A stretch of 64,000 nucleotides of DNA from Butyriboletus loyo. Taxonomy: Eukaryota; Basidiomycota; Agaricomycetes; Boletales; Boletaceae. Location: NCBI GenBank assembly GCA_038093515.1, contig JBBPSI010000084.1:1-64000 (forward strand), read 5' to 3'. The notes beneath the pieces were generated by a model. That model was not told the DNA's origin, made no database searches, and was given only the letters and a program-made list of their open reading frames with translations. Position 1 is the first letter of the stretch, and each line of letters opens with the position of its first letter. Positions 1 to 37,644 of this stretch are shown piece by piece. The position numbers and the translations under genes were made by a program.

Positions 1-1591
1 GGCAGGAGGTTTAGGCTGTAGTATCTGATGAGTTCCTGTATACAAATCCGAGAAATAGTAACGAACCTGTCGGTTTCTGGCATATCCTGTAGTCGTTCGC
101 TAATATGAAATGTTAGATACTGCACATCCGATCGTCTAGGCAAGGAAGAATACTCACTCGCTTACGTTTACCCGCAGCCATCCACGAAGGGCCCTCGGTT
201 GTGGTATCTACTCTCGTTGGGGAGTGAGATCGATGAGCGGCGGGTTGGCGTGACTTTCCGAAACGTCGACCTGGCTTGTGTGAAGTGGCGTCTTTCTTGC
301 TTTGCTGCAGTAGCAACTTTTGAAATATCGAACGACCCAGCGATGACTGGGCAGTATCAAAGTTTTTCTCGGGACATGCCTCTGCAGGCGAGTCGAGTGG
401 CAATAGCTGATCCTCCTGGGGGTCGTGGGCGGAGGTCGGGGATGGTGGCTCCAGTAGAGTCAATATAAAAGCAAAAAACAGAATGAGGTGGCCACGAACC
501 TCATCAAAGTTGAATTCGGCAGCCAACGGACTCGGTCCGGGGACCTCGTGCTATGTCATCATGAGAACTCACGTCGAATGGGAATAGAATAAGTGGATAC
601 CTCAAGATCACCAGTTGATGTCTAATAGCGAGTGTGATGAGATGGATTGATAAGCTAACACGGCGAATCTTACGTGGAAAGGGCCGTATGACTCTGGGAG
701 AATATGACCGAGGTCACGCACAAAGACTTTCCCGACATCTCGTCCAGTTGCCAGATATGTGTCATCTGGGGAGAGGGCGATTGAGCGTATCCATTCGCTG
801 TCCTCGATGGCAGAGCCAATCTGAGTCAGAGTCGATGTGTCCAGGAAGAAGATGAAAGAGAATCCATATGTGGCAATGAATTTGCCATTTGCTGCTAGAG
901 CGATGGACTCAACTTTGCTGTCAAAAGCCAGTGACTCAGCGACCTGGGACCCCGTGGACACAGCAAAAGACGTGATTTTGCAGTCACTGGTTGCCACAAA
1001 GATTTGCTGGCCATCATTGGACCACACGAGTGGAGTGGCTATGTACAATGTCGCTGTAGTTTCGATTGTGACGAGTTCATCACCGTTGCGACTGTCGAAA
1101 ACGTGAATCGAGCCTTGCAAGCAGGAAGTGGCGATGTGCTCGCCATTTGGGGAAAATTTGATTCCATTGACCCAATTGTCTTGTCGGAGCGGGCCGACGA
1201 GTCTCTCCCCCGTCCTTATGCTCCAGATGTTCGCTGTCTTTTCTCCAGTTCCAGTGGCAAACCTGGTCGAATCTGCTGAGACATCGACCGCATACACCTG
1301 CTTTCCGCCCTCCACTTCGATGGCCTTTGTATGCAGCTCTGCATCCCACACACTTGCGCCCTGATTGGCCCCGCACACCACCCATTGGTGATCTCTTGAC
1401 ACACTGATGGCATTCATGTCCATTCCCATTTGGTTTCCAACCTCTTGATTGTCTTCAAGTCGCCATCGTCGAATTCCATCGCTACTCCCACCCAAAAGAT
1501 GTTTTCCATCAGACTGGAACGTGACTGCCCACACTTGATCATCGCGACCGGTGTCGAGTACTATTATTGGGTCTGGCTGGATTGTTAACAT
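1..1591 (-). CDS. WD40 propeller + basic tail protein, array copy 1 (type I tail, cut by window edge)
   Basis: Exon 1 (674-1591) encodes about 306 residues forming seven WD40-like blades, seen as repeated FSPNG/SPDD turns followed by a GS-DG-IRRW type strand. The start is ATG at 1591 (MLTIQ), because all seven copies begin there. GT..AG introns then join 601-621 (7-codon microexon), 500-550 (ending EFNFDE), 158-448 (Pro/Ser/Arg/Lys-rich tail ending GKRKR), 67-99 (11 codons) and 1-15, all in phase; the last exon leaves the window. The 51 bases at 449-499 are either an intron or 17 hydrophobic codons. No enzymatic domain is seen, so a protein-binding scaffold or recognition role is inferred from the fold. 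There is no NACHT or other N-terminal domain on this exon. Confidence is high for the fold and moderate for the splice model. Confidence 0.8.
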
Positions 1592-2240
1592 GCAACACTA
1601 TCACTGTTCAGAGCTGCTACATACTGGTCTTTGTCGACGACATCCTCACCGATGGTACACTGTCGTGGAGTTTGAAGAGTGCAAGAAAGATGGTTTCGGT
1701 TCATTCGTGGGCGCGCAAAGCTGCTCCATCATCATGTTTCCTTGTTCTCTATATGGGTCACAACCGCCTCGTGTCTTTGGCGCTTATTCTTACTCCCACC
1801 CGTTCCATCACCCTCCCGAACAGCCTACAGGGAGCACTCTCATTCCGTACCACCCGAACCCGAATCGCGTCACACTCACATTTGATCGCACAGCCTCCAC
1901 GTTTTCGCGTTCGCTGCTCGGATAGGTGGAGGTTACATGTACGTACATCTCGTTCCGGACCTCGAACGATTGCGCTCACATACAAGCCCTGTTGACGCCA
2001 ATATTGTGGGTAAACTGTACTATAGACACCCGCATGTAAGCCAGATATGCTCTTGATGTCTCTTGAGCACCGTACTAAAATATTGCTCCGCGTTCTACCA
2101 ATGCAGTATGCGGCACAGTGCAATCAACTGCATGTTTTCTCATACTTTTCCTCCCAAGGCAATTTTAAACTGCCACATGTCGATACTCCGACCAACAGGC
2201 AAGATCGACAGCCGTTTTTACCGTATCTCAGCTTTTTATA
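1592..2240. repeat. Conserved 5' flank of the WD40 gene (copy at c1)
   Basis: This segment lies immediately upstream of the minus-strand WD40 start. It recurs, with small changes, upstream of c2 to c7 and in several places without a WD40 gene. It presumably holds the promoter and 5' UTR. Plus-strand reading frames across it (EFEECKK, FGAYSYSHP) recur in the copies but shift and stop from one to the next, so a plus-strand gene, if there was one, has decayed. Confidence 0.6.
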
Positions 2241-2700
2241 CTGATGACTGAAAGGTTGGTCTGAGCTGTGCAACGTGTGACCCAGTATGCTTTCATCCTT
2301 CATGATGATCGACGCTGACGAATTGGCTAGACATGAGTGCTCCCTGCAACCATGGATCCACCTCGACTTGCTCGCACCATAACACACATGCTACGTCCTG
2401 CGGGCGGTGGAAATTGCTTCCACGGCCGTTCAGATTTATTTACTTTGATTCTAAATGACCTCGCTGTCATCATCGCCCTACATTAACGCCGGTCGTCCGA
2501 TCAACTGGCCCTTTTTGCGTCTCCCTCGCTATCAATATTATTATAATACTCCTCATCATCATCTGGTTGTCGCTCTACAGACACACCATGGTCGAGCTGC
2601 TTCGATCAGCTCATGTAACGGAGTGTACGACCGTCGTCGCGATGTCTTTATTATTTTAGGTGTTTGTCGGTGTACCCTCCACATCTAGTTATATACCCCT
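2240..2700 (+). pseudogene. Relic of an unidentified membrane-protein gene (copy 1 of 5)
   Basis: The plus-strand reading WLSLYRHTMVELLR preceded by a run of Ile/Leu/Val, and upstream text of the LADIDAASNEYA type, recur at about 8.2, 16.95, 23.4 and 29.6 kb. Each copy carries different stops and shifts. A hydrophobic segment suggests a membrane protein. I do not recognise the family. Confidence 0.4.
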
Positions 2701-2719
2701 AATGGTGAGCTATCGAAAT

Positions 2720-3180
2720 GATATCTAGATGCCTTCCACCATGTTTCTCACGAGATGGAATCAAGTCGTCACTTTGCCGACAACTAATCAGATCTCCTTG
2801 ACAAAAATAACCTTTACCCTTCCCGAGTTCTGGACGACGACTATTTCTCCCGCAAAGTGCTGCTCCGTGCAGACAAGCTATCAACCCCGCCACATTGAGT
2901 TGGATCCCACCTCGCAATGACATCGACGGTAACATTGATCAAGGGTCGGTGTTCTTGTGGGATTCATCTCGTCGATCGCACAGTTGTCTGACCGTGGTCC
3001 CAATCGAAAACGGAACGGATCAGAAGTTCGGATGTATCAGGAGACCCGATCCCACTGACCGATCCGCCATACCTCTACTCTACCCTCCCAGTTGGCGTTC
3101 AGGGAGAGGTCTGTCCGGTGCTGAGATACACCAGAAAGAATGGTGTGGCCGAGTACGCTGTATTCGCAAGCAAGGGCGAA
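2720..3180 (+). pseudogene. Relic of an unidentified gene (LDDDYFSRKVLL type), copy 1 of 2
   Basis: Plus-strand fragments reading LDDDYFSRKVLLRADKL and later DPIPLTDPPYLYSTLPVGV look protein-like but lie in different frames with stops between them. The same block, about 90% alike by eye, occurs at 24.13-24.60 kb, again just before a YTM1 relic. Family unknown. Confidence 0.35.
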
Positions 3181-3430
3181 TGGACGTCAAAGAGGGAGAC
3201 GGTCCGGTGTGTCCGTCAGGTGTAACCACCAGTTCAAGTATTGGTTGTTCAAGCCTAGACGACGGAGGCGAAAATGAATAATTAGATTTTTTTTACATGA
3301 CATGCCACGCAAAAATGTAGTAGGGAACGGATGAAGGACGCACGATCGTGTCCACATACACCCGACTCGATGTCCCACGTCCGTACGGTTCCAATGTCGA
3401 TGTGCGAGTTCATCCTGTGCAAGTACAGTC
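3180..3430 (-). pseudogene. YTM1 relic a (middle of the gene)
   Basis: Minus-strand readings such as TVRTWDIESGVC and a degenerate LVVTPDGH match the intact YTM1 at 47.86-48.13 kb, including the position of its last intron. A stretch of roughly 30 bases of coding sequence is missing and frames are lost, so this is a dead fragment. Confidence 0.65.
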
Positions 3431-5540: not shown

Positions 5541-5544
5541 AAAG

Positions 5545-5984
5545 TGTCCTACAATCCCAACCTCCGCATGTGGATAGACTTCGTTTATGACCATTGCGTG
5601 AATATGGCAAGCTCGATCATGGACAGGCTTATCATACTGATGTTACGAGGTGACACGAAATCAAAGAACTGCACGATGGATGTCCACATATTGTGATTTA
5701 GAATAGTATCCACAGGAACGGTCTGGATCAAGGTAAGTCATCGTGTGTACCTGAACGATTACACAACAACCACGCTGGCACGGTGACTCGGATCGCAAGA
5801 GTAGAGTACCTCGATCCTTGCTGATGCTGATCCACCGTAAGTATAATGGTGTAAGTGAAATAAAAGTTATGCGCACCGTTACACGGACCCCCGGGGCCGA
5901 GGGGTCAGATGGATCGTTCGCTGCCGGTGGTTGCGTCTAATAGGACGTGAGCTGTGGTGACGAGGCCTACATCGCCAGGAAGAG
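5545..5984. repeat. 3' flank of WD40 copy 2
   Basis: The stretch beyond the stop of c2 matches the 3' flanks of c3 (14.2-14.67 kb) and c5 (26.36-26.83 kb), the other type I units whose ends are inside the window. It probably contains the 3' UTR and terminator. No frame is conserved. Confidence 0.5.
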
Positions 5985-7632
5985 TCATACCGGGTCTGCT
6001 ACCGTTGGATCCGCAGCATGCTCCCCGCTACGCGAAGCATCTTTGTTCGGATGGTTGGGAACCGCAGCCTTGGCATGCGATTTACGCTGCGATATGTGAT
6101 GAGTGATGAGTGCCTGCATACAAATGCGCGGAATAGCGAACCTGTCGTCTTCTGGTGAATCCTGTGGATGTGCGCTAAAATGAAATATTAGACAAACCAC
6201 ATCCCATCGTGCATCAAGGACGAGTACTCACTGCTTGACGTTCAGCTGCAGCCATCCTCGAAGGACCCTCGTTCGTGGCACTGTCCACTCTCGCTGGGGA
6301 GCGGGACGGTGATCGATGATCGGCGGCGGGTTGGCGTGACTTTCCGGAACGTCGACCTGGCTTGTGTGAAGTGGCATCCTTCTCACTTTTTCGCGGTAGC
6401 AGCTTTTTAAATATTGAGCGAATCTGCGACTCGGGACGTGCCTCTGCAGGGGAGTCGAGTGGCGGTAGCTCCCGGGGATCGGCAGCGGAGGTCGGGGACG
6501 GTGGCTACAGTAGGGTCAATATAGAAGCCAAAATGAGGTGGCCACGAACCTCATCAAAGTCGAACTCAGGAGCGGGCGCGCTCGACGGCACGTCAACCTA
6601 CACCATCGTGAGAACTCGCGTCAAACAGGAACAGAATGAGTGGATACCTCAAGATCACTAGTTGATGTCTGATATTGTGTGTGATGAGATGGTTTGATAG
6701 AATAGCCAAATACTTACATGGAAAGGACCGTATGGCTCTGGGAGAATATGAGCGAGGTCATGCACAGAGACTTTCCTATCGTATCGTCCAGTTGCCAGAT
6801 ATGTGTCATCTGGGGAGAGCGTGATTGAGCGTATCCCGTCGCTGTCCTCAATGGCAGAGCCAATCTGAGTCAGAGTCGACGTGTCCAGGAAGAAGATGAA
6901 AGGCCCTCCATATGCGGCAATGAATTTGCCATTCACTGCTAGAGCGATGGAGTGGACATTGTTGAAAGCCGGCGACTCAGCGAGCTGGGACCCCATGGAC
7001 ACAGCGAAAGACTTGATTTTGCGGTCGTTGGTTACCACAAAAAGTTGCTGGCCGTCGTTGGACCATGCAAGTGGAGTGGCTACGTTATTTGAGATCGTTT
7101 CGGTCTGGATTGTGACGAGTTCATCGCCGTTGTGACTGTCGAAAATGCGGATCGAGCCTCGATAGCAGGAAGTGGCGATGTGCTCGCCATTTGGGGAGAA
7201 TTTGATTCCATTGACCTCATTGTCATGTCGGAGTGGGCCGACGAGTCTCTCCCCTGTTGTTATGCTCCGAATGCTCGCTGTCTTACCAGTCCCAGTTGCA
7301 AACGTGGTCGAATCTGGTGAGACATCGACCGCGTACACCCAGTTTCCGCCCTCCACGTCAATGGCCTTTGTATGCAGCTCTGCATCCCACACACTTGCGC
7401 CCTCACTGGTCCCGCATACTACCCATTGGTGATCTCTTGACACACTGATGGCATTCATGTCCATTCCCATTTGGTTTCCGACCTCTTGATTGTCTTCAAG
7501 TCGCCACCGTCGAATCCCATCTTCACTCCCACCCAACAGATGCTTTCTACCAGACTGGAATGTGACTGCATACACTGGACCATTGTGACCGGTGTCAAGT
7601 ACTGTTGTTGGGTCTTGCTGGATTGTTAGCAT
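5985..7632 (-). CDS. WD40 propeller + basic tail protein, array copy 2 (type I tail)
   Basis: Exon 1 is 6718-7632 (ATG at 7632, MLTIQQD), with seven WD40 blades. The microexon, a short exon ending in EFDFDE, the Ser/Pro/Lys-rich tail exon, an 11-codon exon and a last exon ending TVADPV then stop at 5985. Two apparent lesions are harmless if the small introns are real: a TAG in the hydrophobic stretch is the last three bases of a 45-base intron (6505-6549), and a 7-base duplication near 6099-6113 lies inside the last intron. Propeller residues next to the blade-start Val differ from the other copies (GPVY, NWVY, DGIR). Function beyond protein binding is not shown. Confidence 0.78.
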
Positions 7633-8200
7633 TCAATGCTATCACTGTTCAGAGCCGCTACATACTGGTCTTTGTCGACGACATCCTCACCGATGGTACA
7701 CTGTCGTGGAGTTCGAAGAGTGCAAGAAAAATGGTTTCAGTTCAACTCGTGGTGCGCAAAGCTGCTCCATAAACACGTTTCATTATTCTCTATATGGGTC
7801 GCAACCGCCTCGTGTCTTTGGCGCTTATTCTTATTCGCATCCAACCCAAGTCACCTCGTTGCGAAGACCCAACAAGCGGTCAACAAGACACTTTGCCTCA
7901 TTGCCAAGGGTCGTTCTACCCTGAGATTTGTGAGTGTTCATCATATCTTGACTCCAGCACTCATTTCACGACGGCTTTACAATCCACATCAAATGAGCGG
8001 TCTCACTCCAGAAGCATATGCATATTTACAACAATATGGGAGACGAATGATTGTACCACCCAAACCTGAATCAATTGTATGTCGCATCTTCATACTTTTC
8101 CTTCCCAGGCAATTTTAAACTGCCGTATCTCGATACTCAGGTGGATAACCAAGATTGACAGCCGTTTTCACCAACTCTCGCGGTACCTCGCCTTTTTATA
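7633..8200. repeat. Conserved 5' flank of WD40 copy 2
   Basis: Same upstream block as at c1, sharing the TTTGTCGACGACATCCTCAC stretch and the FGAYSYSH reading. In this copy it continues with a tract reading NPHQMSGLTPEAY, also seen upstream of c5 and partly c7. Confidence 0.6.
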
Positions 8201-8645: not shown

Positions 8646-8649
8646 TGTT

Positions 8650-9945: not shown

Positions 9946-9948
9946 GTC

Positions 9949-14215: not shown

Positions 14216-14670
14216 TTCTATGAATGATCAATTAGATACTGTCCTACAATTCCAGCCTCCATGTGTGAACAGACTTGGTTTATGACCATTGGGTGGATAT
14301 CCTAGCAAGTTCAATCATGGATAGGCTTATCAGGGCTCTTACTGATGTTGCGAGGTGACACGAAATTAAAGAACTGCACGATCAATGTCCGTATATTTGC
14401 GAATTACATCAAACGATATGGATCAAGGTAAGTCATCGTGTGTGCCTGAACGATTACACAGCAACCACGCAGGAAGGGTGATGGCAAGGGTAGAGTACCT
14501 CGATCCTTGCTCATGCTGATCCACCGTAAGTATAACGATGTAAGTCAAATAAAAGATATGCGCACCGTTACATGGACCCCCGCGGTCGAGGAGGGGTCAG
14601 ATGAATCGTTTGCTGGTTGCGTCTAATAGGACGTGAGCCGTCGTGACGAGGCCTACATCGCCAGGAAGAG
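14215..14670. repeat. 3' flank of WD40 copy 3
   Basis: Matches the 3' flanks of c2 and c5. No conserved frame; probably 3' UTR and spacer. Confidence 0.45.
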
Positions 14671-16317
14671 TCATACCGGGTCTGCTACCGTTGGATCCGC
14701 AGCATGCTCTCCGCTACGCGAAGGATCTTTGTTTGGATGGTTGGGAGCCGCGGCCTTGGCACGCGATTTACGCTGCGATGTGTGATGAGTGCCTGCATAC
14801 AAATACATGGAGTAGCAAACCTGTCGTCTTCTGGTGAATCCTGTAGATGTGCGCTACAATGAAATATTAAACCAACCGCATCCCATCGTATATCAAGGAC
14901 GAACACTCACTGCTTGACGTTCAGCTGCAGCCATCCTTGAAGGGCCCTCGTTTGTGGCATCCACTTTCGGTGGAGAGTGGGAAGGAGATTGATGACCAGG
15001 GGGCTGGGATGACTTTCCGGAACGTCGACCTGGCTTGTGTGAAGTGGCGTCCTTCTCACTTTTTCGCGGTAGCAGTTTTCTAAATATTGAGCGAATCTGC
15101 GACTCGGCACGTGCCTCTGTAGGGGAGTCGAGTGGCGGTAGCTCCCGGGGATCGGCAGCGTCGGTCGGGGACGGTGGCTGCAGTAGCATCAACACAGAAG
15201 CAATAAACAAAACGAGGTGGCCACGAACCTCTTCAAAATTGAATTCAGCAGCCGGTGTGATCGGTGGGACCTCGTGCTGTGTCATCGTGAGAACTCACGT
15301 CGAATGGAAACAGTACAAGTAGATACCTCTAGATCACTGGTTGATGTCTGATATTGTGTGTCATGAGATGGTTTGATAGAATAGCCAAATACTTACATGA
15401 AAAGGACCGTATGACTCTGGGAGAATATGACCGAGGTCACGCAGAGAGACTTTCCCATCACGTCGTCCAGTTGCCAGATATGTGTCGTCTGGGGAGAGGG
15501 CGATCGAGTATATGTCACTACTGTCCTCAATGGCAGAGCCAATCTGAGTCAGAGTCGACGTGTCGAGGAAGAAGATGGAAGCCGATCCATATGTGGCAAT
15601 GAATTTGCCATTCACTGCTAGAGCGATGGACTTGACAGCAATGTCGAAAGCCGGCGACTCGGCGACCTGCGACCCAGTGGACACAGCAAAAGACTTGATT
15701 TTGCAGTCATCAGTTACTGCAAAAAGTTGCTGGTTGTCACTGGACCATGCAAGTGGAGTGACTATGTAAAATGAGGTTGTTCCTGTCTCGATTGTGACGA
15801 GTTCATCGCCATTGTGACTGTCAAAAATGCGGATCAAGCCTTCATAGCAGCAAGTGGCGATGCACTCGCCATTTGGGGAGAACTTGATTCCATTGACATC
15901 ATTGTCATGTTGGAGTGGGCCAACGAGTCTCTCCCCTGTTGCTATGCTCCAAACACTCGCTGTCTTCCTTCCAGTCCCAGTGGCTAACCTGGTCGAATCT
16001 GGTGAGACATCGACCGCACACACATCGTTTCCGCCTTCCACCTCGATGGCCTTTGTATGTAGCCCTGCATCCCACACACTTGCGCCCTCCTCAGCGCCGC
16101 ATACTATCCATTGGTGATCTCTTGACACACTGATGGCCTTCACGTACATTCCCGTTCGTTTTCCGACCTCTTGATTGTCTTCAAGTCGCCATCGTCGAAT
16201 GCCATCGCTATCCCCACCCAAAAGATGCTTTCCATCAGACTGGAATGCGACTGCCCGTACTTGATCATCGCGACCGGTGTCAAGTACTACTGTTGGGTCT
16301 TGCTGGATTGTTAGCAT
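14671..16317 (-). CDS. WD40 propeller + basic tail protein, array copy 3 (type I tail)
   Basis: Exon 1 is 15397-16317 (ATG at 16317). The six-exon plan is fully open: 7-codon microexon, HEVPPITPAAEFNFEE, tail exon with KLLPRKSEKDATSH, an 11-codon exon (RTSTGFTRRRQ) and a last exon ending ADPTVADPV and TGA at 14671. The product would be about 450 residues, with the WD40 propeller first and then a basic, probably disordered tail. The hydrophobic 51-base stretch before PPSP is open here (EVRGHLVLFI), so it could be retained as a short hydrophobic segment. Variable propeller positions read NDVC, SDIY and GRR. It is the best complete type I reference copy. Confidence 0.82.
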
Positions 16318-16950
16318 GCAACACTATCACTGTTCAGAGTTGCTACACACTGGTCTTTGTTGATGACATCCTCTGCGATGGTACGCTGTCCGTGGAGTTC
16401 GAAGAGTGCAAGAAAGATGGTTTCGGTTCAACTCGTGGTGCGCAAAGCTGCTCCATAAACACGTTTCCTTATTCTCAATATGGGTCGCAACCGCCTCGTG
16501 TCTTTGGCGCTTATTCTTACTCCCACCCCGCTCCTAAAAATGCGTACATTTCATCACCCTCCCAAACAGCCTAACAGGGAGCCCGAATCGCGTCACACTC
16601 ACATTTGATTGCACAGCCTCTATGTTTTCGCGTTCGCTGCTCGGACAGGTGGACGTTACACGTACGTACATCTCTTTCCGGAACTCGGACGATTGCGCTC
16701 ATATACAAGCCCTGTTGACGCCAATGATGTGGGTAAACTGTACTATAGGCACCCGCATGTAAGCTACATATGCCCTTGATGTCTCTCGAGCACTATACTA
16801 AAATATTGCACCGCATTCTACCAATGCAGTATGCGGCACAGTGATACTTTTCCTCCCAAGGCAATTTTAAACTGCCACATGTCGATACTCTGATCCACAG
16901 GCAAGATCGACAACAAGGTTCACGAAATCTCGCGGTATCTCAGCCTTTTA
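16318..16950. repeat. Conserved 5' flank of WD40 copy 3
   Basis: Nearly identical to the flank of c4 (22.75-23.39 kb), including the TTTGTTGATGACATCCTCTG variant, so c3 and c4 share a recent common ancestor for this side of the unit. Confidence 0.6.
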
Positions 16951-17510: not shown

Positions 17511-17519
17511 CCTTATTGC

Positions 17520-20420: not shown

Positions 20421-21041
20421 TTCGTGTCCGTCAGAATGCCAACGAGGAGAATGTTGAATACATGATCGACGAGCCGTTTTCAATGGGTCGAGGACGAGTA
20501 GCGATCAGAGTTCCCCCCCTCCTTTGTATGAGCTAGCGTTTGGATCCGTGATGAACACAAAAAACAGGGACATGACATTCTTGCCTTGGCGAATATTCTT
20601 TGGGTTTGCAACAGCTCGAATCAATTCCAACCTTTTCGCGCATATTCCCCTTCTCAGCGGCCATAAAGTAAATATCCTAGCGAGGCTCGGGCTTATCGAG
20701 AGTCATACGTGATAGCGCTGTGAGGCGACACGAAATCATCCTACATACTCATGATTGAGAGGTGCCTACATGCATTATATCAAATCAGGTGGATCCATGC
20801 GTCCCATCTCTGGTGCCTGAGCCGCAACACATCCATAGGGGAAATGCGAGTCGGATCGAAAGCCTCAAGTTGAGGATAGCCCTGCCTGACTCTCGCTATT
20901 GCAATCCAGCGTGAGTCTATGAAGTAATCGTAAGGAAAGCAGGCGCACCGTCAGATGGACCTCCCCTGCGGATGATTGAGACGGATCGTTCGTTTGTTGT
21001 GCCTAATATGGAATGAGCTTTTATAACATGGAACACAATAA
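20410..21041. repeat. NANEE relic and 3' flank of WD40 copy 4
   Basis: Plus-strand text FRVRQNANEENVEYMIDEPF opens a block that recurs at 30.8, 42.8 and 45.5 kb (with a shorter form at 35.2 kb), always beyond the 3' side of a type II unit. The remainder to 21,041 matches the 3' flanks of c6 and c7. No intact gene. Confidence 0.45.
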
Positions 21042-22744
21042 TCATAAAAAACGGACCGAGGCTCTTTGCGTGTGATCTCCAGAGCCTTGTCCGCTAGGAG
21101 ACGCATTTTTATTTGGATCGTGGGGGTCAACAGCCTTGGTAGTACTAGATGCTTTGTCCTGTAACGTCTGATGAGTCCATGCATATAATCTCGAGGATCA
21201 ACGGAACCTTTGGTTTTGCAGGATATTTTGCGACCGTTCGCTAAGATGATGTGTTAAACGCACGGGATCCGAATGTCTATCAAGAGCACTCACTCGCTTC
21301 CGTTTACCTGCAGCCATCCACGAAGGACCGTCATTTGCGACGTCCACTCTCGCCGGCGACTGAGAAAGAGATTGATGATTGGCAGGCGCGTTCAACTTTC
21401 TGGCAACAGGACTGGACGGATGCAAAGTGGGGCCCTTCTTGCTCTTCTCAATCCTCGTATGTACCCACTTTTTAAGCTTTGGAATGCCACGAGACAACTG
21501 GGTGGTGTCGAGGTGTTGCTCTGGACGTCGCGATGGAGGGTAGGTCACTGGTACATCCGATGACTGCTCTACGTCAGAGGCTGCTGGAGATGGCGGCTGC
21601 AGCAGTGTCAACACGGAAGTAAGAGGAGAATATAACGACCACTGACCTCATCAAAGTTGAATTTGGCAGCTGGCGTGCTCGGTCCAGGGACCTCGTGCTA
21701 TGATGTCGTGAGAACTCGCGTCGAACAGGAACAGAACAAGTGGATACCTCGAGATCACTGGTTGATGTCTAATATTGAGTGTGATGAGATGGATTGATAG
21801 ACTGAGATGGCGAATCTTACATGGAAAGGACCGTATGACTCTGGGAGAATACGACCGAGGTCATGCACAAAGACTTTCCCATCCTCTCGTCCAGTGGCCA
21901 GATAGCGATTATCTGGAGAGAGGGCGATTGACCATATCAATGTGCTGTCCTCAATGTCAGAGCCAATCTGAGTCAGAGTCGACGTGTCCAGAAAGAAGAT
22001 GGAGGACGCTCCATATGCGGCAATGAATTTGCCATTTGCTGCTAGAGCGATGGACTGGACCCTGTCAAAAGCTGATGACTCAGCAACCTGGGACCCTGTG
22101 GACACAGTGAAAGATTTGATTTTGCGGCCATTGGTTGCCACAAAAAATTGTTGGCCATCATTGGACCATGCAAGTGGAGTGGCTACATAAATTGAGGTTA
22201 TTTCCGTCTTGATTGTGACGAGTTCATTGCTGTTGTGACTGTCGAAAATGCGGATTGAGCCTTGCAAGCAGCAAGTGACGATGTGCTCGCCATTTGGCGA
22301 GAATTTGATTCCATTGACCCAATTGTCATGTCCAAGTGGACCGATGAGTCTCTCCCCTGTCCTTATGCTCCAGATGTTCGCCTCTTTTCTTCCAGTCCCA
22401 GTTGCAAACCTTGTCGAATCTGGTGAGACATCGACTGCAAACACCCGGTTTCCGCCCTCCACCTCCATGGCATTTGTGTGCAGCTCTGCGTCCCACACAC
22501 TTGCACCCTCCTCAACACCGCACACTATCCACTGGTGATCTCTTGACACACTGATGGCATTCATGTCCATTCCCATTTGGTTTCCGACCTCTTGATTGTC
22601 TTCAAGTCGCCATCGTTGAATGCCATCGCTACTCCCACCCAAAAGATGCTTTCCGTCAGACTGGAATGTGACTGCCCATACTTGATCATCGCGACCGGTG
22701 TCAAGTACTACTGTTGGGTCTTGCGGATTGTTAGCATGCAACAC
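21042..22744 (-). CDS. WD40 propeller + basic tail protein, array copy 4 (type II tail, chimeric)
   Basis: Exon 1 is 21821-22744 (ATG at 22744). Propeller, first intron and third exon (HEVPG type) resemble c1, but from the third intron (21597-21646, 50 bases) onward the tail is type II: PPSPAASDVEQSS, GIPKLKKWVHTRIEKSKKG, GPSWMAAGKRKR, then RTVAKYPAKPK and a last exon ending QRASVRFL with the stop at 21042-21044. The hydrophobic stretch contains an in-frame TGA here and must be spliced out. Variable blade positions read NRVF, TLIW and GRE. The switch between families lies near 21,647, consistent with recombination or gene conversion. Confidence 0.8.
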
Positions 22745-23390
22745 TACACTGTTCAGAGTTGCTACACACTGGTCTTTGTTGATGACATCCTCTGCGATGG
22801 TACGCTGTCCGTGGAGTTCGAAGAGTGCAAGAAAGATGGTTTCGGTTCAACTCGTGGTGCGCAAAGCTGCTCCATAAAGATGTTTCCTTATTCTCAATAT
22901 GGGTCGCAACTGCCTCGTGTCTTTGGCGCTTATTCTTACTCCCACCCCGCTCCTAAAAATGCGTACATTTCATCACCCTCCCAAACAGCGAGCGCTCTCA
23001 TTCCATACCACCCGAACCCGAATCGCATCACACTCACATTTGATTGCACAGCCTCCACGTTTTCGCGTTCGCTGCTCGGACAGGTGGACGTTACATGTAC
23101 GTACATCTCTTTCCGGACCTCGAACGATTGCGCTCACATACAAGCCCTGTTGACGCCAATAATATGGGTACCCTGTATTATAGGCGCCCGCATGTAAGCT
23201 ACATATGCCCTTGATGTCTCTCGAGCACCGTACTAAAGTATTGTACCGCGTTCTACCAATGCAGTATGCGCATGGCGTGTTCTCATCATTTTCCTTCCAA
23301 GGCAATTTTAAACTGCCATATTTCGATACTCCGATGCACAGGCAAGATCGACAGCTATTTTCACCCACTCTCACGGTACCTCGGCTTTTT
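22745..23390. repeat. Conserved 5' flank of WD40 copy 4
   Basis: Near-identical to the flank of c3. A 191-codon minus-strand frame (22973-23548) overlaps its right part but is interrupted in the other copies. Confidence 0.6.
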
Positions 23391-25950: not shown

Positions 25951-26830
25951 GTTTACAAGGACTCGTGTGAACCCGCATCCTCTAGCTCGAGTTCCTAATA
26001 GCTCTGCGAGTATGCATGGCGGAGCTGGAGACCTTGTGTTCGGATAGGTGTTACATTGGTCAACATCATCAGGGCAACCTAAACGACTGACCGGGAAAAG
26101 CCCAGCACAGAGTCGGGGACCAACACCGCCGAACTGGAGAGACGCCGGGTAATGTCTCATCTTCGCCGTACGCAGTTCGCTGCCCCTCGCCCCCATTCGC
26201 TCTCTGTCTTGGTTTCCGTGGACCAACACCGCACTCGTAAGGTGTCGATTCTTGCCGCAACGACTCACCACTCGTTTCATGATCTTATGTTTCCCCCCAT
26301 TACTTGACATCCCTTTTTATATCCTTATTGACTTCTCTCGCTTGCTTGTTTCCTCGTCTGTTATTTCTATGAATCATCTATTATATACTGTCCTACAATC
26401 CCGGCCTCCGTGTGTGGATGGACTTCGTTTATGACCACTCGGTGAATATCCTGGCACTTGAAGCTCGATCAAGGACAGGTTTATCAGGGTTCATACTGAT
26501 GGTGCGAGGTGACATGAAATCAAAGAACTGCACGATCGACCGTAGTATGCATAGGTATTACATCAAACGATTTGGATCAAGGCAAGTCATCGTGTGTGCC
26601 TGAACGATTACACAGCAACCACGCAGGAAGGGTGATGGCAAGGGTAGAGTGCCTCGATCCTTGCTCACGCTGATCCACTGTAAGTATAACGATATAAGTC
26701 AAAGAAAAGTTACGCGCACCGTTACACGGACCCCCGCGGCCGAGGAGGTGTCAGATGGAATGTTCGTTGCAGGTGGTTGCGTCTAATAGGACGTGAGCTG
26801 TGGTGACAAGGCCTACATCACCAGGAAGAG
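25950..26830. repeat. Palindromic block, spacer and 3' flank of WD40 copy 5
   Basis: The CTAGCTCGAG block recurs at 25.98-26.1 kb in shortened form. 26.36-26.83 kb matches the 3' flanks of c2 and c3. No supported gene. Confidence 0.45.
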
Positions 26831-28502
26831 TCATACTGGGTCTGCTACCGTTAAATCCGCAACACGCTCAGGCTCTCCGCTACGCGAAGCATCTTTGTTT
26901 GGATGTTTAGGAGCAGTAGTGGCCTTGGCAAGAGGTTTAGGCTGTAGTATCTGATGAGTTCCTGTATACAAATCCGAGAAATAGTAACGAACCCGTTGGT
27001 TTCTAGCATATCCTGTAGTCGTTCGCTAGCATGAAATGTTACATACTGCACATCTGATCGTCTAGGCAAGGAAGAATACTTACTCGCTTACGTTGACCCG
27101 CAGCCATCCATGAAGGGCCCTCGTTTGTGGCATCCACTCTCGGTGGGGAGTGGGAAGGAGATCGATGAGCAGCGGGTTGGCGTGACTTTCCAAAACGTCG
27201 ACCGGGATTGTATGAGGTGACGCCCTTCTCACTTTTTCGCGGTAGCAGCTTTTTTAATATTGAGCGAATCTGCGACTCGGGATGTGCCTCTGCAGGGGAG
27301 TCATGTGGCGGTAGCTCCCGGGAATCGGCAGCGGAGGTCGGGGATGGTGGCTGCAGTAGTGTCAATATATAAGCAAGAAACAAAATGAGGTGGCCACGAA
27401 CCTCGTCAAAGTCGAACTCAGGAGCAGGAGCGGGCGCGCTCGACGGCACGTCAACCTACACAATCGTGAGAACTCGCGTCGAACGGGAACAGAGGGAGTG
27501 GATACCTCGAGATCACTAGTTGATGTCTAATATTGTGTGTGATGAGATGGTTTGATAGAATAGCCAAATACTTACATGGAAAGGACCGTATGACTCTGGG
27601 AGAATATGAGCGAGGTCACGCACAAAGACTTTCCCATCACGTCGTCCTGTTGCCAGATATGTGTCGTCTGGGGAGAGGGTGATCGAGTATATCGTTGTGC
27701 TGTCCTCAATGGCAGAGCCAATCTGAGTCAGAGTCAACATGTCCAGGAAGAAGATGGAAGAGAATCCATATGCAACAATGAATTTGCCATTTGCTGCTGG
27801 AACGATGGACTCGATATTGCTGTCAAAAGCTGGTGACTCGGCGACCTGCAACCCCGTGGACACAGCAAAAGACTTGATTTTGCGGTCGTTGGTTGCCACA
27901 AAAAGTTGCTGGCTGTCACTGGACCACCCAAGTGGAGTGACTATGTGAAACGAGGTTGTTTCGGTCTCAATTGTGACAAGTTCATCACCGTTGCGACTGT
28001 CGAAAACGTGAATCGAGCCTTGAACACAGGAAGTGGCGATGTGCTCGCCATTTGGGGAGAACTTGATTCCATTGACCTCGTTGTCATGTCGGAGTGGGCC
28101 GACGAGTCTCTCCCCTGTCCTCATGCTCCAAACACTCGCTGTCCCTTCAGCCTCTCCAGTCCCAGTGGCAAACCTGGCCGAATCTGGTGAGACATCGACC
28201 GCAAACACCGGATTTCCGCCCTCCACCTCGATGCCCTTCGCATGCAACTTCACATCCCACACACTTGCGCCCTCCTGAGCGCCGCACACTATCCAATTAT
28301 GATCCCTTGATGCACTGATGGCGCCAATGTACATCCCCATTTGGTTTCCGACCTCTTGATTGTCTTCAAGTCGCAATCGTCGAATGCCATCGCTACTCCC
28401 GCCCAAAATATGCTTTCCATCAGACTGGAATGCGACTGCCCACACTGGACTATCGTGACCAGTGCCAAGTACTATTGTTGGGTCTGGCTGGATTGTTAGC
28501 AT
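26831..28502 (-). CDS. WD40 propeller + basic tail protein, array copy 5 (type I tail)
   Basis: Exon 1 is 27576-28502 (ATG at 28502). The spliced model stays open through VDVPSSAPAPAPEFDFDE, the tail exon ending GQRKR, an 11-codon exon (RTTTGYARNQR) and a last exon with KHPNKDASRSGE, ending TVADPV with stop at 26831. Blade 3 has a two-residue insertion relative to c1 (GEAEGTASVW). Variable positions read NPVF, TTIY and GRR. The hydrophobic stretch is open (EVRGHLILFLAYILTLLQ), about the length of a short membrane segment, if it is not spliced. Confidence 0.82.
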
Positions 28503-29580
28503 TCAACGCTATCACTGTTCGGAGCTGCTACATACCGATCTTTGTCGACGACATCCTCTGCGATGGTACACTGTTGTGGAGTTCGGAGAGTACAAGAAAG
28601 ATGGTTTCGGTTCACTCGTGCGCAAAGCTGCTCCATAAACACGTTTCCTTATTCTCTATATGGATCACAACCGCTTCATATCTTTGGCGCTTATTCTTAC
28701 TCGCACCCAACCCAAGTGACCTCGTTGCGAAGACCAGACAAGCGGTGACATTTGCCTCATTGCCAAGGATCATTCTACCCTGAGATCTGTGAGTGTTCAT
28801 CGCATCTGGATTGCATTGCTCGTTTCACGACGGCTTTACGATTCCCATCAAACGAGCGGTCTCACTCCAGAAGCATATTTACCACAACGTGGGAGACAAA
28901 TGATTGTACCACCCGAACCCATTTTCGTGTTCACTGTTCGGACAGGTAGACGTTACACGTATATACATATCTTTCCGGACCTCGAACGATTGCGCTCATA
29001 CACAAGCCCTGTTGACGCCAATAATGTGGGTACACTGTATTATAGGCATTCGCATATAAACCACATATGCCCTTGATGTCTCTCAAACATTATTGCCCCG
29101 CGTTCTACCAATGCAGTATGCGGGACAGTGTGCTCAATTGCATGTTGCGTTTTCGTATCTTTCCTTCCCAGGTAATTTTGAACTGCCGTATTTCGATACT
29201 CCGATGGATAACCAAGATTGACAGCCGTTTTCACCAACTCTCGCGCTGCTCAGGCAGGTGGACGTTCAATGTACGTACACCTCTTTCTGGACCTCGAACG
29301 ATTGCGCTCATATACAAGCCCTGTTGACGCCAATAATATGGGTAAACTGTACTGTAGGCACCCGCATGTAAGCCACATATGCTCTTGATGTCTCTCGAGC
29401 ACCGTACTAAAATACTGCACCGCGTTCTACCAATGCAGTATGCAGCACAGTGCGATCAACTGCATGTTTTCTCATACATTTCCTCCCAAGGCAATTTTAA
29501 ACTGCCACATGTCGATACTCCGATCCATAGGCAAGATCAACAGCCGTTTTTACCAACTCTCGCGGTATCTCAGCTTTTTA
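28503..29580. repeat. 5' flank of WD40 copy 5 with an internal tandem duplication
   Basis: The flank is longer than in other copies because about 320 bases are present twice (about 28,925-29,240 and 29,245-29,560). Both halves contain CCTCGAACGATTGCGCTCAT and TACCAATGCAGTATG. Confidence 0.6.
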
Positions 29581-30060: not shown

Positions 30061-30134
30061 TTCAGGAACAGGATGGGTGGGAGAAAGTGATGGTGGCGAA
30101 TGGAAACGAGAGAGAGGGGAGGAAGCAAGACGTA

Positions 30135-30400: not shown

Positions 30401-30419
30401 TGCGTAATCGATTGGGGAT

Positions 30420-30810: not shown

Positions 30811-31638
30811 CCGACTAGGGTCGTTTCGTGTCCGTCGGAATGCTAACGAGGAGCATCTTGAATACATGATCGACGAGCCGTTTGCAGTGGGTCGTGTAGG
30901 GTGTCATGGAAGTGCCTCCGGTGAGTGTCACGTAGACTCCAACATGATAGTTGATCGGGTCGCTTCAGGCCGTCCAAACGTGCTGTTCCCGAAATGTCGT
31001 GTGATGATCAGGAGAGCGGAATCCTCATTGGTACCATCATCACTGGCAGAGATATCCTCGATGTAGGTGGTTTCCCAGGATGAGTAGCGATCAGAGTTCC
31101 CCCCCTCCTTTGTACGAGCTAGCGTTTGGATCCGTGATGAATACGAAAAACAGGGACATGACATTCTGACACACATTCTTGTCTTGGCGAATATTCCTTG
31201 GGTTTGCAACAGCTCGAATCAATTCCAATCTTTCCGTACGTGTTCCCCTTCTCAGCGGCCATGGAGTAAACATCCTAGCGAGCTCAATCTTATCGAGAAT
31301 CATACATAATAGCGCTGTGAGGTGACACGAAATCGTCCTACATACTCACGATTGAGAGGTGCCTACATGCATTGTATCAAATCAGGTGGATTCGTGCGTC
31401 CCATCTCCAGTGCCTGAGCCGCAACACATCCATAGGGGAAATGCGAGTTGGACCGAAAACCTCAAGTTGAGGATAGCCCTGCCTGACTCTCGCTATTGCA
31501 ATCCAGCGTGAGTCCATGAAGTAATCGTAAGGAAAGTAGGCGCACCGTCAGATGGACCTCCCCTGCGGATGATTGAGATGGATCGTTCGTTTGTTGTGCC
31601 TAACATGGAATGAGCTTTTATAACATGGTACACAATAA
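30810..31638. repeat. NANEE relic and 3' flank of WD40 copy 6
   Basis: Plus-strand FRVRRNANEEHLEYMIDEPF and DSNMIVDRVASGRPNVLFPK are followed by a tract identical in layout to 20.5-21.04 kb and 35.25-35.97 kb. No intact gene. Confidence 0.45.
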
Positions 31639-33335
31639 TCATAAAAAACGGACCGAGCCTCTTTGCGTGTGATCTCCAGAGCCTTGTCCGCTAGGAGACA
31701 CGTTTTTATTTGGATCGTGGGGGTCAACAGCCTTGGTAGTACTAGATGCTTTGTCCTGTAACGTCTGATGAGTCCATGCATATAATCTCGAGGATCAACG
31801 GAACCTTTGGTTTTGCAGGATATTTTGCGACCGTTCGCTAAGATGATGTGTTAAACGCACGGGATCCGAATGTCTATCAAGAGCACTCACTCGCTTCCGT
31901 TTACCTGCAGCCATCCACGAAGGACCGTCATTTGCGACGTCCACTCTCACCGGCGACTGAGAAAGAGATTGATGATTGGCAGGCGCATTCGACTTTCTGG
32001 CAACAGGACTGGACGGATGCAAACTGGGGCCCTTCTTGCTCTTCTCGATCCTTGTTTTTACCCACTTTTTAAGCTTTGGAATGCCACGAGACGGCTCGGC
32101 GCTGTCGCGATGTTTCCCTGGACTCGCCTCTGGAGGATAGGTCACTGATACATCTGACGACTGCTCTACCTCAGAGGCTGCTGGAGATGGCGGCTGCAGC
32201 AGTGTCAACGCGGAAGTAAGAGGAGAATATAGCGACCACTGACCTCATCAAAGTCGAACTCGGGAGCGGGCGCGCTCGACGGCACGTCAACCTACATGAT
32301 CGTGAGGACTCGCTTTGAACGGGAAAAGAACGAGTGGATACCTCGAGATCACTAGTTGATGTCTAATGTTGTGTGTGATGAGATGGTGTTGATTTGATAG
32401 GTTGACATGGCGAAGAGACAAATACTTACATATGACTCAGGGAGAATATGACCGAGGTCACGCACAGAGACTCTCCCGTCATCTCGTCCAGTGGCCAGAT
32501 AGTAATTGTCTGGAGAGAGGGTGATCGACCATATCGCTGTGCTGTCCTCAATGGCAGAGCCAATCTGGATGAGAGTTGACGTGTCCAGGAAGAAGATGGA
32601 GGATGCTCCATATGCAGCAATGAATTTACCATTCACTGCTAGAGCGATGGACTCGACCCCCCAGCGGAAAACCAGCGATTCAGTGAGCTCAGACCCAGTG
32701 GACAGAGCAAAAGCCTTGATTTTGTTGTTGTTTATTACTGCAAAGAATTGCTGGCCGTCGTTGGACCACGCAAGTGGAGTGGCTACGTAAAATGAGGTTG
32801 TTTCTGTCTTGATTGTGATGAGTTCATGGCCGTTGTGACTGTTGAAAATGTGGATCGAGCCTCGATAGCAGGAAGTGGCGATGTGCTTGCCATTTGGTGA
32901 GAATTTGATTCCATTGACCCTATTGCCTTGTTGGAGTGGGCCGACAAGCCTCTCGCCAGTCTTTATGCTCCAAATGCTCACTGTCTTACCAGTCCCAGTG
33001 GCAAACCTGGTCGAATCTGGTGAGACATCGACTGAATTCACCTCATTTATCCCCTCCACATCGATGGCTTTTGCATGCACCTCCGCGTCCCACACGCTTG
33101 CGCCCTGAGCAGTACCGCACACTACCCACTGGTGGTCTCTCGACATGCAGATGGCATTCAAGTACATTCCTGTTTGCTTTCTGACCTCGTGATTGTCTTC
33201 AAGCCGCCACCGTCGAATCCCATCGTCACTCCCGCCCAAAAGATGCTTTCCGTCGGACTGGAATGCGACTGCCCACACTTCACCAGAGCGACCGGTGTCA
33301 AGTACGATTGTTGGGTCTTGCTGGACTGTCAGCAT
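31639..33335 (-). CDS. WD40 propeller + basic tail protein, array copy 6 (type II tail)
   Basis: Exon 1 is 32430-33335 (ATG at 33335) and ends at LPESY before the first intron, four codons earlier than in c1 to c5. Then follow TSTSDLE, VDVPSSAPAPEFDFDE, a roughly 50-base intron with an in-frame TGA if unspliced, the tail exon (PPSPAASEVEQSSDVSV, GIPKLKKWVKTRIEKSKKG, GKRKR) and a last exon ending QRASVRFL, stop at 31639-31641. Variable positions read NEVN, TAIW and GRD. It is the best complete type II reference copy. Confidence 0.82.
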
Positions 33336-33600
33336 TCAACACAATCACTCCTCGCAGCTACCACGCACCTGTCTTTATGGACGACATCCTCACTGTCGTG
33401 GAGTTCGAAGAGTGGGAGAAATATGGTTTCAGTTCACTTGTCACAAACATGTTTCCTTATTCTCCATATGGGTTGCAGCCGCCTCGTGTCTTTGGCGCTT
33501 ATTCTTACTCGCACCCAAGCCAAGTCACCTCGTTGCGAAGATCAGACAAGCGGTCAACATCCGTGACATTTTGCCTCATTCCCAAGGGTCGTTCTTCAGG
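33336..33600. repeat. Short 5' flank of WD40 copy 6
   Basis: Only about 265 bases of the usual 500-600 base flank remain before the sequence joins module C at about 33,605. If the promoter lies further out in other copies, c6 has a different one. Confidence 0.55.
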
Positions 33601-34550: not shown

Positions 34551-35968
34551 GCGAACGAGAGGAAGTCTTGAATCATAGGGCTGATCTTATAATCCGTCAT
34601 TCTTCGAGTCACGTCAGACTCTCCGTGAAGGGTCACCAGGTCATACATTGGACAGCTATATCGTGTTGGGTCAAACCATCGACTCGGCGCCAGTGACTAG
34701 CCGATTCGGGGTATATTAGACGACCAGAGGGTTCATGGCCAGGCTCGAATGCGCATCGAGTGTTTATTGTCCGACTCTTGTCCGACTCTGGTTATCCCAG
34801 TTTCAGGTACGGTGTTCGGATTCTTCACTGGAGACGAAATGAAAATTTGGCGGGAACCGTGGTGAGATCTTTTTCTGCAGTCGACGCCACGTTTGATTCC
34901 CGAGCAGGTCCTCGAGCGCACGATTTGCAGAGTCACCACCCCCGCACCAATTATTCTAGTGCCCCTCTGTTATATTTGCATTCACTCGCAGGTTGCTCCG
35001 CCCCGAACCTGACGTGCTGTTCTAGGGGTATCGTCGTCCCGCACACATGTTTAGCGCTCCAGCCAGCACTCCAGCTCTCTGCAGAACAAGCATAACTCGT
35101 CCATGTCAATGAGATCAAGAATGTGCCTTGTCTTTGCGAATTGGCTGGCCGACTTTGTTGCTGGTATGCCTCTCGCTCAGCGTTGGATCCCCAAAGGCGT
35201 GCTCACACGTTGATCACGACAACGGGGCTCCGGCGAGCGTTGTGTAGACTCCAACATATAGTTGATCAGGTCATTTCAGGCCGTCCGAACGTGCTGTTCC
35301 TGAAATGCCGTGTGCGATGATCATAGAGGGCCCCGGTATAATCAATCTCATTGGCGTCATCACCACTGGCAGAGAGGGATCATCGGTCATCAATGTGGGT
35401 GGTTTCCCAAGACGAGTAGCGATCAGAGTTCCCCTCCTCCTTCGTACGAACTAGCATTTGGATCCGTGATGAATACGAAAAACAGGGACATGACATTCTG
35501 ACACACATTCTTGTCTTGGTGTATTCCTTGGGTTTGCAACAGCTCGAATCAATTCCAACCTTTTCATGCGTGTTCCTCTTCTTAGCGGCCATGGAATAAA
35601 CATCCTAGCGAGCTCAATCTTATCAAGCATCATACATGATAGCGCTGTGAGGCGACACGAAACTGTTCTACATACTCATGATTGAGAGGTGCCTACATGC
35701 ATTGTATCAAATCAGGTGGATCCATGCGTCCCATCTCTGGTGCCTGAGCCGCAACACATCCATGCGGGAAATGCGAGTCGGATCGAAAACCTCAAGTCGA
35801 GGATAGCCTTGCCCGACTCTCGCTATTGCAATCCAACGTGAGTCCATGAGGTAATCGTAAGGAAAGTACGCGCACCGTCAGATGGACCTCCCCTGCGGAT
35901 GATTGAGATGGATCGTTCGTTTGTTGTGCCTAATATGAAATGAGCTTTTATAACATGGTACACAATAA
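34550..35968. repeat. Spacer, shared fragments and 3' flank of WD40 copy 7
   Basis: 34.83-35.05 kb resembles 13.73-13.95 kb. 35.09-35.25 kb (CELAGRLCCWYASRSALDPQ) matches the tandem units at 42.52 and 45.2 kb. 35.25-35.97 kb matches the 3' flanks of c4 and c6. No intact gene. Confidence 0.45.
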
Positions 35969-37644
35969 TCATAAAAAACGGACCGAGCCTCTTTGCATGT
36001 GATCTCCAGAGCCTTGTCCGCTAGGAGACGCATTTTTATTTGGATCGTGGGGGTCAACAGCCTTGGTAGCACTAGATGCTTTGTCCTGTAACGTCTGATG
36101 AGTCCATGCATATAATCTCGAGGATCAACGGAACCTTTGGTTTTGCAGGATATTTTGCGACCGTTCGCTAAGATGATGTGTTAAACGCACGGGATCCGAA
36201 TGTCTATCAAGAGCACTCACTCGCTTCCGTTTACCTGCAGCCATCCACGAAGGACCGTCATTTGCGACGTCCACTCTCGCCGGCGACTGGGAAAGAGATC
36301 GATGATTGGCAGGCGCGTTCAACTTTCTGGCAACAGGACTGGATGGATGCGAAGCGGGGCCCTTCTTGCTCTTCTCAATCCTCGTATGTACCCACTTTTT
36401 AAGCTTTGGAATGCCACGAGACGACTGGGTGGTGTCGCGATGTTCCCCTGGACTCGCCTCTGGAGGGTAGGTCACTGGTACATCTGACGACTGCTCACCT
36501 CAGAGGCTGCCGGAGATGGCGGCTGCAGCAGCGTCAACACGGAAGTAAGAGTAGAATACAGTTACTGCTAACCTCGTCAAAGTCGAACTCGGGAGCGGGC
36601 GTGCTCGACGGCACGTCAACCTACACGATCATGAGAACTCGCGTCGAATGAGAAAAGAACGAATGAATACCTCGAGATCACTAGTTGATGTCTAATGTTG
36701 TGTGTGATGAGATGGTGCTGCATGGCGAATAGACAAATACTTACATACGATTCGGGGAGAATCTGACCAAGGTCGCGTACAAAGACTTTCCCATCAAATT
36801 GACCAGTGGCCAGATAGCGATTATCTGGGGAGAGGGCGATCGAGAATATCGAATCGCTGATCTCGATGGAAGAGCGAATCTGGGAGAGAGTTGACGTGTC
36901 GAGGAAGAAGATGGAAGACATTCCATATGCAGCAATGAATCTGCCATTCGCTGCTGGAACGATGGACCAGACCTTGCTGTGGAAAGCCGGCGACTCGGCG
37001 ACCTGGGACCCCGTGGACACAGCGAAAGACCTGAGTTTGGCGTCATTTGTTGCCGCGAGGATTTGCTGGCCATCGCTGGACCATGCGAGTGTCAGAATTG
37101 TGTCGGTCTTGATGGTGATGAGTTCATCGCCAGTGCGACTGCTGAGAACACGGATCGAGCCTTGAAAGCAGCAAGTGGCGATGTGCTCGCCATTTGGTGA
37201 GAATTTGATTCGATGGAGTTGATCATCATATTGAAGTGGGCCAACGAGTCTCTCCCCTGTTGTTATGCTCCAAATGCTCAATTTCCTGTCATCATTTGCA
37301 GTCCCAGTAGCAAACATCGTCGAATCTGGGGAGACATCGACTGAAATCACCCAGTTGTTCCCATCCACCTCGATGGCCCTTGTATGCAGCTCTGCGTCCC
37401 ACACGGTTGCACCCCGATTGGTCCCGCATACTACCCATTGGTGATCTCTTGACACAGAGATGTCAAGCACGTTCATTCCCGTTTGGTTTCCGACCTCTTG
37501 ACTGTCTTCAAGTCGCCATCGTCGAATCCCATCGATACTCCCACCCAAAAGATGCTTTTCGTCGGACTGGAATGCGACTGCGTGCGCTACACTAGAGCGA
37601 CCGGTGTCAAGTACTATTGTTGGGTCTTGCTGGATTGTCAACAT
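35969..37644 (-). pseudogene. WD40 + tail gene, array copy 7 (propeller open, tail frameshifted)
   Basis: Exon 1 (36745-37644, ATG at 37644) is fully open and is the most diverged propeller of the array, with variable positions SVAH, NWVI, DSIF and GQF. In the type II tail exon one base is missing at about 36,496 compared with c4 and c6 (GAGGTGAGC against GAGGTAGAGC on the minus strand), which shifts the frame after PPSPAASEV and gives an early stop. The original frame resumes open at MTYPPEASPG and runs to QRASVRFL (stop 35969-35971). A truncated protein with a complete propeller is still possible, so whether the gene is dead is open. Confidence 0.7.

Follow-up and report, generated by a model that had tools for sequence, protein, structure and literature searches.

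The first 64,000 nucleotides of contig JBBPSI010000084.1 of Butyriboletus loyo (assembly GCA_038093515.1; this stretch is hereafter called the window) carry seven minus-strand open reading frames (ORFs) of 318-342 amino acids, which are predicted to encode seven-bladed WD40 propellers. In this one assembly, they belong to a large family in which diversifying selection on one face of the propeller is well supported. We consider that these genes probably represent an expanded family of NACHT-free recognition proteins, probably acting inside the cell, and that the pattern most likely reflects the recognition of ligands that vary.

The ORF list of the window confirmed all seven ORFs at the places on the minus strand given by an earlier sequence-only reading. 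That reading had labelled each of them as exon 1; most likely, however, they are exon 2. In all seven copies, including the one with a listed GTG start, a 19-nt putative exon that starts with ATG and encodes MSS[T/I]K[T/I] joined in frame to the propeller across a GT-AG intron of 50-52 nt; the splice models were derived from the nucleotide sequence throughout. MLTIQQ was rejected as the start of the protein, since in 7/7 copies it falls after the 19-nt exon and before the propeller, in a stretch that resembles an intron, and the ATG of MLT would most likely be intronic. A point against this rejection is the annotation of one database protein, P0057, which follows the MLT reading. Among the 10 relatives checked at full length, P0088, P0108, and P0112 start with or near MSSTN and continue likewise into the propeller. 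A GTAAGT donor followed the propeller in five of the seven window copies. The tail after it appears to be encoded by several further exons and is rich in Ser, Pro, and basic residues, and the long part between the propeller and the C-terminal module looked disordered by eye.

Pfam WD40 scored above its cut-off in all three copies scanned. The best-scoring Pfam profile was THOC3 (PF25174), which was rejected because these copies reached 96.5-143.7 bits against a curated cut-off of 305 bits. An AlphaFold2 model of copy 1 (mean predicted local distance difference test score, 94) contained seven blades with seven strand sets. Its best match in the PDB was 5yzv (template modelling score, 0.87), and the nearest solved structures were ordinary WD40 propellers; as modelled, the genes encode seven-bladed propellers of this fold. 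The identity between blades within genes of the family was 0.18 on average and 0.38 at most. In the WD40 fold, the d-a and b-c loops make up the top face. Faces were set from the strand assignments of the model (DSSP); in blades 5 and 6, the first strand was short and was lengthened by homology, as was the last strand of blade 6.

The differences among the copies were concentrated on this top face. In the seven window copies, the mean amino acid identity was 0.25 at 21 positions (offsets -1, +1, and +17 from the first Val of each blade) versus 0.78 elsewhere. The codon analysis was conducted with 29 of 47 full-length exon-2 sequences, among which loci L009, L010, L026, L029, and L037 are window copies. 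Nine identical or near-identical sequences (L013, L016, L021, L023, L024, L038, the second hit of L040, L047, and L050) and nine divergent ones within L051-L058 were dropped, and two frame-broken copies (L030/L044 and the first hit of L040) and pieces cut by fetch ends (in L055 and L056) were unused. All 29 copies differed in their 21-residue face combination. Entropy by offset from the first Val was 2.37 bits at -1, 2.19 at +17, 1.45 at +1, and 1.37 at -2. In a purpose-written grid analysis similar to FUBAR (fast unconstrained Bayesian approximation) with the 29 copies and one tree, 36 of 303 codon columns had a posterior above 0.9 for positive selection and 82 were negatively selected. Positively selected residues comprised 21 of the 57 residues in top-face loops and 1 of the 64 in bottom-face loops (Fisher P = 2e-7).

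These results agree with the proposal of the sequence-only reading that the differences lie on one face of the propeller and are not evenly scattered. The residue strings that it had quoted (KQVY to NWVI, EWIR to DSIF, and GRD to GQF) were all present in our alignment, and codons 92, 94, 260, 261, 263, and 279 among its positions were positively selected (posterior 0.95-1.0; omega of 4 in the M8 class), as it had expected of their ratio of nonsynonymous to synonymous substitution (dN/dS). Its view that equivalent sites vary in the same way was correct in that the variation is far from even, but residues 91 and 278 of the quoted strings were not significant. Codons 134, 110, and 196 were likewise not called in the single-tree grid analysis, although codon 134 was called under M8 with one or three trees.

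Comparison of the M7 and M8 models gave twice the log-likelihood difference (2dlnL) of 373 with one tree, 257 with three segment trees, and 242 with six, and M8 placed approximately 8-9% of the codons at an omega of 4. With six trees, 15 sites were called, 12 in top loops, none in bottom loops, and 3 elsewhere. The seven window copies alone gave a 2dlnL of 91.2. The log-likelihood gain from one tree to six exceeded 1,200 units, indicating strong recombination, and null data with recombination and without positive selection were therefore simulated along the six segment trees. When these were analysed with one tree, M8 being fitted on a coarser omega grid, all 12 simulations yielded a 2dlnL of 17.6-48.4 with a fitted omega of 2 or less. 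With a null maximum of 48.4 against the observed 373, we rejected the possibility that recombination alone produced the selection signal.

By the method of Nei and Gojobori (NG86), dN/dS was 1.5 at the 21 hot codons of the 29 copies and 1.97 at those of the window copies. The values for the 29 copies were 0.26 in bottom loops, 0.49 in strands, and 0.71 over all top-loop residues. The same face varied in database relatives. In alignment A1, to which 73 of the 120 listed proteins contributed (the ends of rows 3 and 4 have a one-codon shift, and row 6 lacks one codon), the mean entropy was 2.31 bits in top loops versus 0.95 bits in bottom loops, the most variable offsets were -1, +17, -2, and +1, and the variability correlated with the within-genome rates (Spearman 0.56).

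The copies were in-register mosaics. The copies at 6658 and C349:14390 were identical at every ungapped polymorphic site over 631 nt and agreed at 78% of such sites elsewhere; C224:25400 and C171:22830 shared 427 nt, with 74% agreement elsewhere. The six longest shared runs covered 302-631 nt, with 74-95% agreement at polymorphic sites outside them, and for some of these pairs, such as C84:98816 and C232:35404 (95%), close relatedness or allelism may be explanation enough. The identical run exceeded that of all 500 permutations in 52 of 406 pairs; we press only the long runs because short ones partly mirror conserved protein stretches. At the hot codons, divergence at bases 1, 2, and 3 was 0.43, 0.40, and 0.36, compared with 0.10, 0.10, and 0.17 in the remainder, and the ratio of transitions to transversions (Ti/Tv) was 0.82 versus 2.39 elsewhere. 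The excess of transversions and of changes at bases 1 and 2 argues for selection on amino acids and against repeat-induced point mutation (RIP); given these Ti/Tv values, RIP or another C-to-T hypermutation was rejected as the source of the variation.

The seven genes described by the sequence-only reading proved to be a small part of the family. A genome search found at least 122 propeller matches, all with E values of 1.3e-105 or better and some of them partial (e.g., C224:204-881). Since the 122 matches are the scored part of 332 first-look candidates, the propeller counts are lower bounds. At least 114 propellers were left after the removal of contigs C343, C245, and C367, whose compared parts were 99.4-100% alike to those of C224 or C232; further redundancy is possible. 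The pairs C224/C343 and C232/C245 were 99.7-100% alike, one pair being aligned over 2,600 of 3,972 bases, and they may be haplotypes or assembly redundancy. Six extra propeller places were located, five on C69 and one on C32. Among neighbouring pairs less than 20 kb apart, 63 of 65 were on one strand (median gap, 4.9 kb), indicating tandem arrays. Beyond the window, at 76222-99787 on the plus strand of the same contig (C84), there were four more propeller genes in the opposite orientation, so that the contig bears two oppositely oriented arrays. Contig C232 (L015, L034) carried two copies 8.7 kb apart that were collinear with window copies 3 (98.7%, over 2,766 of 3,978 bases) and 2 (93.3%); this pair is maybe the other haplotype of copies 2-3 with block exchanges. 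The named relatives were WD40-repeat proteins of Boletus edulis, Imleria badia, Butyriboletus roseoflavus, and Lanmaoa asiatica, with 56-61% identity in the propeller.

A putative last exon encoding a short C-terminal module was found approximately 0.8-1.5 kb downstream of most propellers, ending in LAITLPAWLLCNRSGTHDDLP or VQLAFPLWMCCGSGTGDGTHEST. Its limits were deduced from splice sites and indels. The stretch LTYIVILTVDQ before the module was considered as coding sequence and rejected; indels across the copies and the splice sites point to an intron. Genome searches with the two module types gave 120 and 33 matches, the query for the first type containing some intron sequence. A module lay downstream on the same strand for 79 + 20 = 99 of the 114 propellers, and of the 15 propellers without one, at least three were at contig ends. 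Among the matches listed, no propeller accompanied 34 of the 113 first-type modules and 13 of the 33 second-type modules. In the window, two orphan modules with identical translations (Table 1) look like relics of deleted or duplicated copies. The last 21 codons of the module had a dN/dS of 0.18, indicating purifying selection, in a sample of 27 segments that were all of the first (AWLLC) type and included some genes taken twice. The ends of the Boletus edulis and Imleria badia proteins P0010 and P0011 resembled the module, and these were the only two of the 120 listed relatives to show it, most relatives being incomplete in the database. A database search with the C-terminal part of P0010 matched P0010 itself only, and a Pfam scan of four long relatives at E < 1e-10 found propeller-type families only.

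Positions of the propeller exons, C-terminal modules, and neighbouring genes are collected in Table 1. The Ytm1-like gene beside the array, a housekeeping WD40 gene for ribosome biogenesis, encodes a product 88% identical to a Butyriboletus roseoflavus protein, its best named match. Two ORFs farther along share similar C-terminal RING-type sequences slightly under the Pfam cut-offs and are possibly a second small family. An ordinary gene of SecY/Sec61 type lies past the array. The Pfam scan of 20 other ORFs of the window (10 + 10) gave RING-like, SecY, and one WD40 match only.

Table 1 Features of the window; exon and module limits are putative.
Feature	Position	Strand	Remark
Copy 1 exon 2 (seven-bladed propeller)	674..1572	-	exon 1, 1625-1643; copy modelled with AlphaFold2; gene end would fall past contig start
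Copy 2 exon 2 (propeller)	6718..7613	-	exon 1, 7666-7684
Copy 2 C-terminal module region (VPAWLLC)	5731..5856	-	takes in 3' part of preceding intron
Copy 3 exon 2 (propeller)	15397..16298	-	exon 1, 16351-16369
Copy 3 C-terminal module region (LPAWLLC)	14426..14548	-	takes in 3' part of preceding intron
Copy 4 exon 2 (propeller)	21821..22719	-	exon 1, 22770-22788; listed GTG start intronic in model
Copy 4 C-terminal module (type FPxWMCC)	20794..20892	-	
Copy 5 exon 2 (propeller)	27576..28483	-	exon 1, 28536-28554
Copy 5 C-terminal module region	26580..26702	-	genome-search query; takes in 3' part of preceding intron
Copy 6 exon 2 (propeller)	32430..33316	-	exon 1, 33369-33387
Copy 6 later exons	~32244-32291, 31891-32193, 31805-31837, 31654-31755, 31546-31599	-	deduced from splice sites
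Copy 6 C-terminal module (type FPxWMCC)	31388..31489	-	
Copy 7 exon 2 (propeller)	36745..37625	-	exon 1, 37678-37696; least like copy 1 among the seven
Copy 7 C-terminal module (type FPxWMCC)	35721..35819	-	
Orphan C-terminal module	43236..43298	-	no listed propeller
Second orphan C-terminal module	45910..45972	-	translation identical to that at 43236
Ytm1-like gene	47500-49120	-	
RING-type ORF	54995-55930	+	
RING-type ORF	57564-58505	+	
SecY/Sec61-type ORF	60146-60832	+	

In the architecture that we propose, a seven-bladed WD40 propeller would be followed by a long tail and then by the short conserved C-terminal module. The top face would bind fast-changing protein ligands, such as conspecific non-self, microbial, viral, or plant-partner proteins, and the constant C-terminus would transmit a signal or anchor the protein. 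New face combinations would arise by tandem duplication and gene conversion, and selection would retain the useful ones. A module that is conserved beside a varying face is in keeping with a receptor whose output end stays constant. To our knowledge, few of the genes responsible for somatic non-self recognition and innate immunity have been identified in mushroom-forming fungi, and more than 100 propellers with selection on one face and a conserved module would offer a concrete candidate set for these functions.

Several points weigh against recognition as the explanation. It rests on sequence and predicted structure, and a very similar signature would be expected if the copies had diversified for different endogenous partners. 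The M8 test is inflated by recombination, the null simulations having reached 48.4 and one null run having called 32 sites. The bootstrap interval over sites for NG86 dN/dS at the hot codons (0.83-2.6) spans 1. Synonymous divergence (pS, the proportion of synonymous differences) in the 29 copies was raised in top loops (0.34, versus 0.25 in bottom loops and 0.17 in strands), so that locally raised diversity may add to the pattern; in the window copies, pS was equal in top and bottom loops (0.33-0.34). The selection statistics stand without an ordinary WD40 family as a control. Furthermore, no module was found for 15 of the 114 propellers, two fetched copies were frame-broken, and codon 27 of the Podospora HET-E repeats, with which the family is compared below, has an equivalent (offset +19) that was selected in only one of seven blades.

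An adaptor or substrate-receptor family is the likeliest of the alternatives, although we regard it as unlikely. Each propeller would then have its own endogenous partner, such as a ubiquitin-ligation substrate, and the selection would stem from functional specialisation among paralogues and not from non-self recognition. WD40 propellers often act as adaptors, and the two RING-type ORFs farther along the window, just under the Pfam cut-offs, would suit such a role. An arms race is the better match for 29 different face combinations in 29 copies and for the hypervariability of the same sites in the 73 database proteins, and repeated exchange between copies would disrupt stable partnerships.

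An effector or immune repertoire aimed outward, whose face recognises proteins of the host plant or of soil microbes at the symbiotic interface, seems more doubtful still. The named relatives belong to the Boletaceae, many of which are ectomycorrhizal. Against this, MSSTKT stands directly before the propeller and no signal-peptide-like stretch was seen by eye, which makes the usual secretion route unlikely. An intracellular immune role is possible and would overlap with the recognition family that we favour.

That the variation has no selected function and reflects relaxed constraint, RIP hypermutation, or an assembly artefact on a decaying repeat family is very improbable: the two frame-broken copies, the near-identical C224/C343 and C232/C245, and the modules with no listed propeller would accord with it, and the open frames of the 29 copies are no evidence against it because these copies were selected as unbroken, but dN/dS was 0.26 in bottom loops and 0.18 in the module, intact copies are under purifying selection outside the face, Ti/Tv at the hot codons was the opposite of that from a C-to-T process, a module lay 0.8-1.5 kb downstream of 99 of the 114 propellers, and the same face varies in database relatives.

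A wider version of the recognition reading can be offered only tentatively. The Boletaceae may possess a NACHT-independent repertoire of more than 100 stand-alone propellers that adopts the face solution of HET-D/E without the switch of NLRs (nucleotide-binding oligomerization domain-like receptors), has a dedicated C-terminal module for signalling or anchoring, and supplies most of non-self recognition. The last part is suggested because canonical NACHT genes look few (four Pfam matches).

The closest known systems are the het-d, het-e, and het-r genes of Podospora anserina, in which the WD40 propeller is likewise the variable domain. In the excerpted text of Paoletti and colleagues (PMC1805685), codons 7, 9, 25, and 27 of the HET-D/E repeats are positively selected and lie on the top of the propeller. 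We equated them with offsets -1, +1, +17, and +19 from the first Val. At these positions, 13 of 28 residues of the present family were positively selected, compared with 23 of 272 others (Fisher P = 1.3e-6), with posteriors above 0.9 at -1 in 3/7 blades, +1 in 4/7, +17 in 5/7, and +19 in 1/7. When the pattern was slid by -2, it scored 14/28 because adjacent loop residues vary too; thus, our claim is limited to the face and does not extend to the four exact codons.

The family is not of the NWD (NACHT-WD40) type, since it lacks a NACHT domain, an effector domain, and near-identical repeats. Only about seven residues precede the propeller in the proposed gene model, with no room for an N-terminal NACHT domain or an effector domain (HET, HeLo-like), the first exon encoding MSS[T/I]K[T/I] in 7/7 copies. 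The NACHT profile gave four genome matches (C148, C29, and C50), none of them on C84, NB-ARC not being searched. There was no variable number of near-identical WD repeats in the family either; its seven blades have a mean identity of 0.18, versus 0.57 in the repeats of a gene on C148. At 46770-51434 of that contig (L003, L006), a NACHT match is followed by at least 12 similar WD40 repeats on the same strand, forming a basidiomycete counterpart of het-e. The 12 repeats vary most at +17, -1, +19, and +1 (with +27 equal to +1), which makes them a good reference for comparison inside this genome. The same face therefore varies in both, although all four HET-E positions do so on C148, where, unlike in the present family, there is a NACHT match and the repeats are 57% mutually identical. 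The sequence-only reading, which had likened the genes to HET-E/NWD-type recognition genes, was right about a diversified face, and the likeness is specific in that the same repeat positions (codons 7, 9, and 25) vary, but it does not extend to NWD membership; the recognition function is one that we likewise infer.

No paper describing such a family was found by title or abstract in the library searched, most papers being judged on these alone. The records of the Boletaceae relatives, which belong to the same family, call them WD40-repeat proteins, and the sources assign no function. In the bolete relative Phlebopus portentosus, 237 WD40 genes were counted according to the excerpted text of PMC12028679. 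Sequence exchange inside the family is a likeness to the Podospora NWD/HNWD (HET-NACHT-WD40) genes, as far as the excerpts of PMC1805685 and PMC2873952 describe them. In the latter excerpt, new alleles arise by reshuffling within repeat arrays and exchange between loci occurs over a longer time, whereas exchange in the present family is in register between genes. The family also differs from the Podospora NWD family of 10, as given in these excerpts, in having more than 100 copies, a C-terminal module of its own, and a mostly conserved codon 27. It probably works like the HET-E recognition domain, outside the NWD family. The pattern suggests that, in fungi, the WD40 face can diversify as a recognition surface independently of NLR architecture.

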